From assembly GCA_024687655.1 (NCBI GenBank), contig JAILEN010000028.1:1-41707 (forward strand): 41,707 bases of DNA. The letters are read 5' to 3'. A program made the translations under genes and the position numbers. Numbering within the stretch: the first letter of the stretch is position 1; each line of letters opens with the position of its first letter. Source of the DNA: Lachnospiraceae bacterium. Lineage in GTDB: Bacteria; Bacillota; Clostridia; Lachnospirales; Lachnospiraceae. Positions 30,366 to 35,575 of this stretch are shown in pieces. Below the pieces are notes generated by a model. It did not search any database. It saw only the letters and a list, made by a program, of their open reading frames with translations, and was not told the DNA's origin.

Positions 30366-31130
30366 TTATAACTGTGAAAGCGCCTGAAGGGCATCCTGGG
30401 GGATGATCATCTCTGAGATCTCCGTCAGGTGGCAATCCAACCCCAGGGTCTCTGGCAGGGGTGATGAGTACTCACTTAAGATATTGCACAGGCGGTTGAA
30501 AACCTCCGGCGTAGCCTCGTCCATGGAAAGAATGAGGCAGTACTCGTCGGTATAGAGCTTGAGGAGCCTGCTGCTGCCGGGATAGGTAAAATCAAAAGCC
30601 CGGGAAGCATCCACCGCATCATCCAAAGTATCAAAGCAGAAGGAACGAACCACATTTTCAAAGGGAACATCTGCCTCGGTGCTCTCGGAAGCGGCCTTTT
30701 TGGCATTTTTACCGGCAAAGAGCTTAAGAATGTCATTAGCGGTGTGGCTGTAGTCGATGGAGGGCAGGGGGCTTGTGAAGTCCTCAAGGGAAATATCATC
30801 ATAGTCCTCATAATCCTCATCCATATCCGAGGAAATATCCGAAAGGTCCGCAAAGCTGGAAAATCTGGTGTCCAGCTCATCGGGATAGGGCACCTTGGTA
30901 ACGATGAGTATGATGCCGTCTGCAGAAACCGGAATGGCCTCTATCACAAGAGGGATATCCTCCGCCTCAAAGCCATATTTGTAAGAGGCCCAGCGAAGCA
31001 TCTCCTTGAAGAGAGTGCGGGCCTTGGGGGTACCGTAGGCAAACTCCGAAAGTCGGATATTACGCTGCTCCAAGTCCTCCCGGCTAAGTGTGCACCGGAT
31101 TTGGTTTTCATTTATCTTTTCTATTCTCAT
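30366..31130 (-). CDS. mecA: Adaptor protein MecA
   Basis: MRIEKINENQIRCTLSREDLEQRNIRLSEFAYGTPKARTLFKEML...; C-terminal substrate-adaptor domain. Confidence 0.9.
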   Translation of the reverse strand: MRIEKINENQIRCTLSREDLEQRNIRLSEFAYGTPKARTLFKEMLRWASYKYGFEAEDIPLVIEAIPVSADGIILIVTKVPYPDELDTRFSSFADLSDISSDMDEDYEDYDDISLEDFTSPLPSIDYSHTANDILKLFAGKNAKKAASESTEADVPFENVVRSFCFDTLDDAVDASRAFDFTYPGSSRLLKLYTDEYCLILSMDEATPEVFNRLCNILSEYSSPLPETLGLDCHLTEISEMIIPQDALQALSQL

Positions 31131-31797: not shown

Positions 31798-33513
31798 ATG
31801 AACAAAAAAAAGAAACCTGCAAGCGGTCTGTATATAGCACTGGCTTTCGGCCTTCTGATCCTGACGGCGGGTCTGTTGATAATTGCCAAAAAATACGCAC
31901 CTACCCGGGAAAGGATGGAGCTTTCCGAGGTATATGAGAGCCATTTTGAAAATGAGGCAGCAGTCATTTTAAACGGGGAATACATGCCCACTGAGGAGAC
32001 GGACAGCTGTGCATACGGTGTGATACTTTCCGGGACACCCTATCTCCAGTTGGATTTTATTAAAAACAATATCGATAACCGCTATGTTTACGATGACAGC
32101 GAAAAAGTGCTTCGGTACACCACAGATACGGACATCATTTCCGTGAATATCGGTGATAATACCTACAGCGTGGGCCGTACTGAGGAGAGCATAGATGCAC
32201 CCATTATCGAGCAGGAGGGAGCCGGGGTTTATCTTGCGGTGCAGTTTGTCCAGAAGTATTCGGATCTCGGATATTCCGTGGAAAGTGACCCGGATCGTAT
32301 CATCATCCAGCTGGCGGGCTGGGAGAAAAAGACGGCTACCATCAAAAAGAACACCCAGATCAGACGGCTGGGCGGCCCCAAGAGCAAGATCCTGAAGGAT
32401 GTCAGTAAGGGTGATCACGTCATAGTTTTGGATGAGATAGGAAAATGGACCGAGATCATGACCGATGACGGGGTTATGGGCTACTGCCTGGATAAGTACA
32501 TCATTGACAAGAATACCGAGACAGTGGAAGCGGTTTTGCCCGAGAGGAGCTACAAGCATATCCTTATGAACGAAAAGGTTTCCATGGGCTGGGTCCAGAT
32601 CATGGACAAGCCGGGCAACGTCAGTATTGACAGCGTACTCAATAAGGCTGGTGACGGCATCAATGTCATCTCACCCACTTGGTTCAGACTCAGTGACAAT
32701 CAGGGTGGGATAGATAATATCGCCAGTTATGACTACGTCAACAAATGTCACGATATGGGCATACAGGTTTGGGGTCTGGTCAACAATTTCGACAATAAGG
32801 ATATTTCCTCCAATGCAGTTTTAACCTCCGCCTCCGCCAGGGATAATCTCATCAACAATCTGATCGGTGCGGCGGTGGCATACGATATGGATGGTATCAA
32901 CGTGGACTTCGAATTTCTTCAGCCCGCAGATGCAGATGGTTTTCTGGAGTTTATCAGGGAGCTTTCCGTAAAGTGCAGGAACAATGATCTGGTGCTTTCC
33001 GTGGATAACTACGTTCCCTCATCCTTCCATGCATTTTATGATTACGAGGAGCAGGGCAAATATGCGGATTACGTGGTGATCATGGCCTACGACGAGCATT
33101 ATTCTGGCAGCGATGATCCGGGCAGTGTGTCCAGTCTGGGCTTTGTGGAAAAGGCGGCGTCGGATATGCTGGAATATGTGTCGCCTGATCAGATAATCCT
33201 GGGCATGCCCTTTTATTATCGCCTGTGGATCACCAATGAAACTGGGCTTACCAGTTCCGTGATCCATATGGATGAGACGGACAGTATGCTGGAAAAGTAT
33301 GGAGCCACCACCAACTGGATTGATGAGGTGGGTCAGAGTTACGCAGAGTTTGACTATGAAGGATCGCATTATCAGACCTGGATCGAGGATACCAGATCTC
33401 TTGAGCTGAAGCTGCAGGTTATGGAGGAAAATAACCTGGCGGGAGCAGCCTTTTGGAAGCTGGGTCTGGAACCCGAGAGTACATGGGATGTGATCAACGA
33501 GTATTTGCAATGA
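31798..33513 (+). CDS. Membrane-anchored/secreted GH18-family hydrolase with bacterial SH3 domain
   Basis: N-terminal TM helix; SH3b-like TATIKKNTQIRRLGGPKSKILKDVSKGDHVIVL...; catalytic DMDGINVDFE. Confidence 0.9.
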   Translation: MNKKKKPASGLYIALAFGLLILTAGLLIIAKKYAPTRERMELSEVYESHFENEAAVILNGEYMPTEETDSCAYGVILSGTPYLQLDFIKNNIDNRYVYDDSEKVLRYTTDTDIISVNIGDNTYSVGRTEESIDAPIIEQEGAGVYLAVQFVQKYSDLGYSVESDPDRIIIQLAGWEKKTATIKKNTQIRRLGGPKSKILKDVSKGDHVIVLDEIGKWTEIMTDDGVMGYCLDKYIIDKNTETVEAVLPERSYKHILMNEKVSMGWVQIMDKPGNVSIDSVLNKAGDGINVISPTWFRLSDNQGGIDNIASYDYVNKCHDMGIQVWGLVNNFDNKDISSNAVLTSASARDNLINNLIGAAVAYDMDGINVDFEFLQPADADGFLEFIRELSVKCRNNDLVLSVDNYVPSSFHAFYDYEEQGKYADYVVIMAYDEHYSGSDDPGSVSSLGFVEKAASDMLEYVSPDQIILGMPFYYRLWITNETGLTSSVIHMDETDSMLEKYGATTNWIDEVGQSYAEFDYEGSHYQTWIEDTRSLELKLQVMEENNLAGAAFWKLGLEPESTWDVINEYLQ

Positions 33514-34559
33514 AAACTGATATAATAAGGATCGATCCGGAAAACATAGATGCCGCAGCCATGGAACGGGCGGCAGGGTATATCAGGAAAAAGGAGCTGG
33601 TGGCCTTTCCCACGGAGACAGTGTACGGACTGGGTGGTGATGCCATGGACACCGGTGCATCCAAAAGGATATATTCGGCAAAGGGCAGGCCCTCAGACAA
33701 TCCGCTGATCATCCATATAGCACAGACGGAGAGTCTATATGATATCGGGACGGATATTCCGGAGGCAGCCTTTGATCTGGCCGGGGCGTTTTGGCCCGGT
33801 CCCATGACTCTTATCATAAAAAAGAAAGCCGGGGTCCCTTATGAGACCACGGGAGGATTGGATACCGTGGCAGTGAGGCTTCCCTCGCACCCCATAGCCA
33901 GGGAGCTCATTAAAAAAAGCGGATGCTTCATTGCAGCTCCATCAGCCAACACCAGCGGCAGACCCTCACCCACAAAGGCATCTCACGTTATTGAGGACAT
34001 GGATGGTCGCATTGCCTGCATTATAGACGGAGGGACCGTGGAGATCGGACTGGAGTCCACCATCATAGACCTGACTGAGGACATTCCCACAATTTTACGT
34101 CCCGGAGCCATCACTTTGGCACAGGTTAAAAGTGTTACAGGTGAGGCGAGGATGGATCCGGGACTGGTAAAGGAAGACGAGACCACACGCCCCAAAGCAC
34201 CGGGGATGAGATACAGACACTATGCTCCCCGGGGAGAGCTTACAATAGTAGAGGGCGAGAGGCAGGCTGTGATAAGCAGGATACAAAAGCTGTGTGAGGA
34301 AAGCAAAAACGCAGGGCACAGGACTGCCGTCATCTCCAGCACCGAGAGTGCAAAGAATTATGAGGGTTACCGGGTCTTTGATATAGGGGCCCTAAGCCAC
34401 GAGGAAGAGATCGCTCACAACCTCTATGACATCCTCAGAAAGCTGGATGAAGAAGACATAGAGCAGATCTATTCGGAGTCCTTTGATACTCCAAATGTGG
34501 GGACGGCCATTATGAACCGGCTTCTCAAGGCAGCAGGACACAGACTTATCAGAGTGTAA
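33510..34559 (+). CDS. Threonylcarbamoyl-AMP synthase (Sua5/YwlC/TsaC)
   Basis: LVAFPTETVYGLGGDAMD, KGRPSDNPLIIHI, APSANTSGRPSPTKASHV; ATGA overlap with upstream gene. Confidence 0.95.
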   Translation: MKTDIIRIDPENIDAAAMERAAGYIRKKELVAFPTETVYGLGGDAMDTGASKRIYSAKGRPSDNPLIIHIAQTESLYDIGTDIPEAAFDLAGAFWPGPMTLIIKKKAGVPYETTGGLDTVAVRLPSHPIARELIKKSGCFIAAPSANTSGRPSPTKASHVIEDMDGRIACIIDGGTVEIGLESTIIDLTEDIPTILRPGAITLAQVKSVTGEARMDPGLVKEDETTRPKAPGMRYRHYAPRGELTIVEGERQAVISRIQKLCEESKNAGHRTAVISSTESAKNYEGYRVFDIGALSHEEEIAHNLYDILRKLDEEDIEQIYSESFDTPNVGTAIMNRLLKAAGHRLIRV

Positions 34560-34621: not shown

Positions 34622-35089
34622 ATGAGAAAATACAAACGTGTGATATTTGCCGAGGGTAATGGGATCACCCGGGCACCCATGGCGGCAGAGATTTTTAAAA
34701 GCATATACAGCGGCGATGCGGAGATTTTATCCCGGGGGATCATAGTTCAGTTTTCCGAGCCCCTTAATCAAAAGGCACAGGCTGTGATGATCAGTAACGG
34801 TATAGATCTTACTGATTTTGAGTCCCAAAAGCTGGTGGCTTCGGACATTACCCTGGATACCATAGTTTTTACCATGGAGGCATCATCGCTTAAAAAGATC
34901 CTTGAGAGTATAGATACTGCCAATGAGGAGAATACATTCCTACTCACGGATTTTGTGGGAGAGGAGCTTCCCATCATGAATCCCTTTGGCGGGACTCTCC
35001 AGACCTACGGAATATGCTTCGAGATGCTTAAGACCACACTTAAAAAGCTTAATGACAGGCTTTGTGAGGATGATACCAAGGAGGCTTAG
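34622..35089 (+). CDS. Low-molecular-weight phosphatase/YwlE-like protein lacking catalytic residues
   Basis: VIFAEGNGITRAPMAAEIF aligns to VxFVCxGNxCRSPMAEAxF; IMNPFGGTLQTYG aligns to DPFGGSxxxY; located after ywlC homologue. Confidence 0.8.
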   Translation: MRKYKRVIFAEGNGITRAPMAAEIFKSIYSGDAEILSRGIIVQFSEPLNQKAQAVMISNGIDLTDFESQKLVASDITLDTIVFTMEASSLKKILESIDTANEENTFLLTDFVGEELPIMNPFGGTLQTYGICFEMLKTTLKKLNDRLCEDDTKEA

Positions 35090-35575
35090 GTGAGCGAAAA
35101 AAGAGAAGACTATTTAAGCTGGGATGAATACTTTATGGGCATTGCCTTTTTATCCGGCATGCGCTCAAAGGATCCCCACACTCAGGTGGGAGCCTGCATA
35201 GTGAGCCAGGACAACAAGATCCTGTCCATGGGCTATAACGGCTTTCCTCTGGGATGCTCGGATGATGAGTTTCCATGGAACCGGGACGGCGACCCCCTGG
35301 ACAATAAATACTTTTACACCACCCACAGTGAGCTCAACGCCATTTTAAACTACAGAGGCGGATCACTGGAGGGAGCCAAGTTGTATGTATCACTGTTTCC
35401 CTGCAACGAATGTGCCAAGGCCATCATACAGTCGGGGATCAAGGAGATCATTTACGACAGTGACAAGTACGAGCATACTCCCAGCGTCATAGCTTCCAAG
35501 AGGATGCTTGATGCTGCCGGGGTGACCTTCAAGAAATACGAGCATACCGGACGCACCATTACCATGGACGTATGA
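35090..35575 (+). CDS. dCMP deaminase (ComEB-like)
   Basis: SKDPHTQVGACIVSQDNKILSMGYNGFP, HSELNAI, SLFPCNECAKAIIQSGI zinc motifs; GTG start. Confidence 0.93.
   Translation: MSEKREDYLSWDEYFMGIAFLSGMRSKDPHTQVGACIVSQDNKILSMGYNGFPLGCSDDEFPWNRDGDPLDNKYFYTTHSELNAILNYRGGSLEGAKLYVSLFPCNECAKAIIQSGIKEIIYDSDKYEHTPSVIASKRMLDAAGVTFKKYEHTGRTITMDV

Follow-up and report, generated by a model that had tools for sequence, protein, structure and literature searches.

A predicted catalytically dead, tsaC-linked form of YwlE in the Lachnospiraceae

Why would a gene for a phosphatase-fold protein be kept directly after tsaC/ywlC once the residues of catalysis are gone? The question is raised by an ORF in the window analysed here, by which we mean the whole stretch of 41,707 nt taken from contig JAILEN010000028.1 of a Lachnospiraceae bacterium. 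We found that this ORF belongs to a YwlE form that is widespread in the Lachnospiraceae, under selection and predicted to be catalytically dead, the existence of which is established by sequence, and we weighed what such a protein could be doing beside tsaC.

A degenerate active site in a retained fold

The ORF encodes 155 aa in an intact frame from ATG to stop (Table 1). Its product matched Pfam LMWPc (PF01451) with 43.7 bits, where the cut-off is 23.2, so that the homology is far above chance. The AlphaFold2 (AF2) model of the protein reached a pLDDT of 95.7 and a pTM of 0.91, and its best Foldseek matches were the YwlE structures 4pic, 4kk4, 4kk3 and 4etn (TM about 0.86, E 4e-12). Lying after tsaC, the gene is the positional orthologue of YwlE, in the ywlC-ywlE-atp slot to which the first-pass annotation had assigned it.

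Codon reading agreed throughout with the active-site substitutions pointed out in that annotation. The position of the catalytic nucleophile Cys is occupied by Glu11 (GAG at 34652), that of the second P-loop Cys by Thr16 (ACC) and that of the P-loop Ser by Ala18 (GCA); Arg17 (CGG) is kept, and residues 12-15 are likewise non-canonical, with G-N-G-I where T-G-N-T is expected. The Thr at P-loop position PX5 sets phosphoarginine specificity in YwlE/PtpB (PMC8001253), and the corresponding residue here is Ile15. The codon at 34979, where the general acid Asp of the D-P loop is expected, is AAT (Asn120). The C(X)4CR(S/T) signature of active LMW protein tyrosine phosphatases (LMW-PTPs) and their D-P loop Asp are both absent. 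Catalytic residues lost from a retained fold, as seen in sequence and predicted structure, mark the protein as a predicted pseudophosphatase, which is what the first reading had proposed.

Table 1. Features at and around the LMW-PTP-fold gene, in positions of the window
Feature	Coordinates	Strand	Evidence
tsaC/ywlC, Sua5-type threonylcarbamoyl-AMP synthase; directly upstream; fusion partner in some relatives	33510..34559	+	PF01300, PF03481
LMW-PTP-fold protein, YwlE positional orthologue, predicted catalytically dead	34622..35089	+	ORF, Pfam, AF2, Foldseek
Degenerate P-loop, residues 11-18, E-G-N-G-I-T-R-A (canonical C-T-G-N-T-C-R-S)	34652..34675	+	
beta2-alpha2 loop, residues 37-51, S-R-G-I-I-V-Q-F-S-E-P-L-N-Q-K (family consensus SRGLVVLFPEPxNxK(A))	34730..34774	+	
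Former acid loop, residues 120-124, N-P-F-G-G (Asn120 in place of the general acid Asp)	34979..34993	+	
dCMP/cytidine deaminase-family gene, directly downstream, same ywl-atp gene order	35090..35575	+	PF00383

The tight placement between tsaC/ywlC and the dCMP deaminase gene was also found as described: 62 nt separate the ORF from the end of tsaC, and the GTG start of the deaminase is the next base after the ORF, with atpI and atpB following. MecA (PF05389) is encoded at 30366-31130 on the minus strand, and its proximity, noted in that annotation, gained no support as a functional link. A gene for a glycosyl hydrolase family 18 protein with an SH3-like region (31798-33513) overlaps the start of tsaC by 4 nt and, because of this overlap, may lie in the same operon. 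The second LMW-PTP of the same genome (L001, 578-1066, G000:C168) has the canonical loop CHGNICRS, in which PX5 is Ile, and is probably, judged by these motifs, the genome's active tyrosine phosphatase.

Active-site state and McsB across the family

Homologues were detected by protein search in 76/150 sampled Lachnospiraceae genomes, with the frame intact in nearly all of them, and close homologues occurred in named records of Roseburia, Lachnobacterium, Petralouisia and others. Two more genus genomes (L089 and L091) had the same Glu/Thr/Ala/Asn state as our protein; four further members had Ala at the Cys position and kept DPYGG, and no sister strain within the genus had an intact CX5R at the locus. 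Fixation in the clade, which the first-pass annotation had raised, was found for the predicted dead state as such, throughout the genus and, with variation, in much of the family; within the genus the exact E/T/N state was seen in three genomes. Its sharing among genus members and the strong constraint led us to reject sequencing error or recent decay.

Outside the family the active site was complete: 56/56 orthologues from the order's other families kept Cys, Arg, Ser and Asp, 27/27 sequences that we read in further orders of the class had an intact P-loop, and the P-loops of both sets were of the CTGNTCRS type. Among the 87 Lachnospiraceae orthologues beside tsaC, the Cys was missing from 62, residue 11 being S in 31, C in 25, D in 12, A in 11, E in 5 and G in 3. 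The acid Asp persisted in 45/87 and CX5R in 17/87, and some of these 17 proteins may, from their motifs, still be enzymes; the full C-x-G-N-x-x-R pattern together with the Asp was present in 8/87. The active-site state required no fewer than 12-13 changes on the TsaC tree, where a deep group of 71 rows mostly had no Cys. As read from the alignment and this tree, loss of the Cys, often with loss of the acid Asp, is a property of most Lachnospiraceae copies and of a deep part of the tree.

The arginine kinase McsB, which B. subtilis has, was found (PF00217) in 54/56 outgroup genomes of the order, which shows that the search works; the 14 named control genomes, unexpectedly, gave no match. Within the family it was present in 15/80 sampled genomes with the LMW gene and in 20/74 without, and it was not found by profile or protein search in any of the eight genus genomes (0/8, drafts 53-88% complete). 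Strong McsB matches came from seven family genomes. All seven had complete P-loops, and six of them kept the expected kinase motifs; those of the G207 McsB were partly altered. Eight family genomes with weak matches had broken P-loops, and in most of these genomes the kinase motifs were altered, for example to NGDDH and FPTN/YPTN. A largely intact McsB occurred in 7/8 family genomes with a complete P-loop, whereas it occurred in 0/72 of the others (Fisher p 2.5e-9, kinship ignored), and the independent pairs on supported branches for P-loop and McsB state numbered three, all concordant but too few to support a phylogeny-corrected test. This co-occurrence pattern suggests that phosphoarginine signalling decayed in the Lachnospiraceae, writer and eraser together, with the fold of the eraser kept. 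We also observed McsB-like Lachnospiraceae proteins (L234-L241, L247-L266) with NGDDH, FPTNVGTG or YPTN in place of NEEDH and CPTN, in genomes where YwlE is broken or absent; from their altered motifs these could possibly form a pseudo-arginine-kinase group.

The protein could instead be a pseudophosphatase reader, in which Arg17 and the P-loop amides bind a phosphorylated or other anionic ligand and its presence is reported to TsaC or another partner. Arg17 was kept in 80/80 closer named relatives despite A, C, D, G, T or E at position 11, and in 70/87 of the wider family, and the near-invariant loop described below lines the mouth of the former pocket. The 80 named loci were found through the F44/P47/N49 pattern, which makes conservation of those residues there circular, and what we counted from them was limited to residue 11, Arg17 and the acid position. 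Against a reader, the Arg was lost in 17/87 family sequences, and the acidic residue at position 11 (17/87, including the protein studied here) would clash with a phosphate. An acidic residue 11 always occurred together with Arg17 in the family set (17/17 versus 53/70, p 0.035), which suggests an internal salt bridge and argues against phosphate binding by our protein. The former phosphate site is probably filled by its Glu11 in a pair with Arg17, and therefore the protein probably binds no phospho-ligands. Reading of phosphoarginine, a role suggested in the first-pass annotation, was further disfavoured by the negative McsB searches of the eight genus genomes and by the lack of an intact McsB in any family genome with a broken P-loop. 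We consider a reader function improbable.

Selection, a near-invariant loop and the link to tsaC

The dN/dS values calculated by NG86 were 0.03-0.11, similar to those of tsaC. Many pairwise dS values were saturated and only unsaturated pairs were used, the least saturated giving 0.054 (G000-G154), 0.097 (G000-G155) and 0.034 (L093-L086). These values indicate purifying selection and uphold the earlier view that the gene is not a decaying pseudogene; neither a broken frame nor relaxed constraint was found. A slowly decaying, functionless relic of YwlE would fit the degenerate active site and the absence of the gene from 74/150 family genomes, but it is contradicted by the dN/dS values, by a new near-invariant loop, by the intact frames of the homologues and by the depth of Cys loss in the tree, and we regard it as very improbable.

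This loop corresponds to residues 37-51. In LMW-PTPs the beta2-alpha2 loop forms a wall of the active-site cleft, and the AF2 model placed residues 37-51 between beta2 and alpha2, beside the former active site. In the family F44 and P47 were conserved in 87/87 sequences, E46 and N49 in 85/87 and K51 in 84/87. The mean entropy of P-loop positions 11-18 was 1.87 bits in the Cys-less proteins versus 0.04 in the active outgroup, and that of positions 37-51 was 0.74 versus 1.99 bits. In these alignments the conservation is inverted, the P-loop now being variable and the beta2-alpha2 loop nearly fixed. The motif VVLFxEPxNxK was already present in family members with an intact P-loop, and because of this the loop is probably older than the loss of catalysis. 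Four nearly invariant charged or polar residues of the loop, Arg38, Glu46, Asn49 and Lys51, could in principle replace the Cys nucleophile in an enzyme of changed chemistry, and some members keep CX5R. However, the acid loop is also variable, and we know of no catalytic precedent for Cys-free chemistry in the LMW-PTP fold, so that such an enzyme appears a very long shot.

The second conserved feature is the position of the gene. It lay within 150 nt of tsaC, or was fused to it, at 71/74 loci, 13 of these being in-frame fusions that came from several lineages, and the gene downstream varied among rpiB, upp and dcd. Nearly all of the 74 family genomes without the LMW gene, which make up about half of the sample, kept tsaC, so that TsaC, as judged by gene content, does not in general need the LMW protein. 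The 30 best matches read from these 74 genomes were all an unlinked canonical paralogue; of 30 tsaC loci that we read there, most had rpiB, upp or dcd directly after tsaC. In the genome G034 the tsaC-LMW-dcd-atp region was present twice, on separate contigs (L004, L033), probably because of a mixture of strains in the draft.

A natural TsaC-LMW fusion from G104 was modelled by AF2 with a pLDDT of 94.2 and a pTM of 0.89 over 508 aa. Such values are high for a protein of several domains and suggest that the domains have a defined arrangement. Fusions were also seen with other neighbours. TsaC is fused in frame to uracil phosphoribosyltransferase (Upp) in G057 (L296), where the LMW gene is absent, and, outside the Lachnospiraceae but within the order, YwlE-type phosphatases that retain an intact P-loop are fused to RpiB (L126, L132, L144), Upp (L141) or TsaC (L142). 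The TsaC-Upp, YwlE-RpiB and YwlE-Upp fusions mean that adjacency alone makes fusions, and fusion to TsaC, considered as strong functional proof, was downgraded after they were found.

These fusions with other neighbours, together with a tsaC-ywlE order that is ancestral in the class and the nearness of MecA and the atp genes in the window, would also fit an independent binding or adaptor protein, acting for example on ATP synthase, dCMP deaminase or Clp adaptors and having merely inherited its place after tsaC. The link to tsaC at 71/74 loci, kept while the downstream gene changes, speaks against such an adaptor, which we hold to be unlikely.

The most telling features are, in our judgement, the near-invariant RGxVVLFPEPxNxK loop and the family-wide tsaC link, in-frame fusions included. 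The reading that we prefer, and to which we give about an even chance, is that a YwlE orthologue turned non-catalytic and its RGxVVLFPEPxNxK face was kept for a second function, most likely docking on TsaC. In the order's other families the position behind tsaC is taken by a YwlE-type enzyme whose motifs are complete, and McsB accompanies it. Loss of arginine phosphorylation in the Lachnospiraceae would have removed the need for catalysis, and a second, earlier-acquired function on the RGxVVLFPEPxNxK face would have been kept, most likely as a structural or regulatory subunit docked on TsaC/Sua5. A more specific version, in which McsB was lost or degenerated and YwlE became a dedicated non-catalytic regulatory subunit of TsaC, docked through RGxVVLFPEPxNxK and repeatedly fused to it, is more tentative; we think it somewhat less probable than not being the case.

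Relation to known systems

If docking on TsaC is correct, a signalling enzyme was repurposed after the death of its pathway, in a family that ranks among the commonest of gut bacteria and in which intact ancestors can still be found alongside intermediate and dead forms, and an enzyme of t6A tRNA modification gains an unrecognised partner. Lachnospiraceae genes annotated as tyrosine phosphatase beside tsaC are predicted to be mostly not phosphatases. No earlier description of a dead, tsaC-linked YwlE family was found in the open-access literature, which misses most subscription papers.

The closest known system is YwlE itself (B. subtilis 4kk3/4etn, G. stearothermophilus 4pic), which has the same fold (TM 0.85-0.86) and the same slot after tsaC/ywlC. 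In contrast to YwlE, the protein studied here is without the Cys nucleophile, the canonical GN, the Thr at PX5 and the acid Asp, its family has the near-invariant RGxVVLFPEPxNxK loop, and no McsB was found in its genus. With the bacterial LMW protein tyrosine phosphatases (Wzb, YfkJ, PtpA; PF01451) it has the fold and the family profile in common, but here the catalytic signature is broken and the location is the tsaC operon. Multi-domain t6A enzymes are known, and the Sua5/TsaC synthases 6f87 and 9d3h and the modular TsaN 8ide were matched by the TsaC-Sua5 part of the fusions; the combination of Sua5 and LMW-PTP domains was absent from the PDB entries among the matches listed. Loss of the catalytic Cys from a retained phosphatase fold has a eukaryotic counterpart in the pseudophosphatase MK-STYX, which belongs to a different phosphatase class and to different organisms, whereas the form described here extends through much of a bacterial family and lies beside a tRNA-modification gene.
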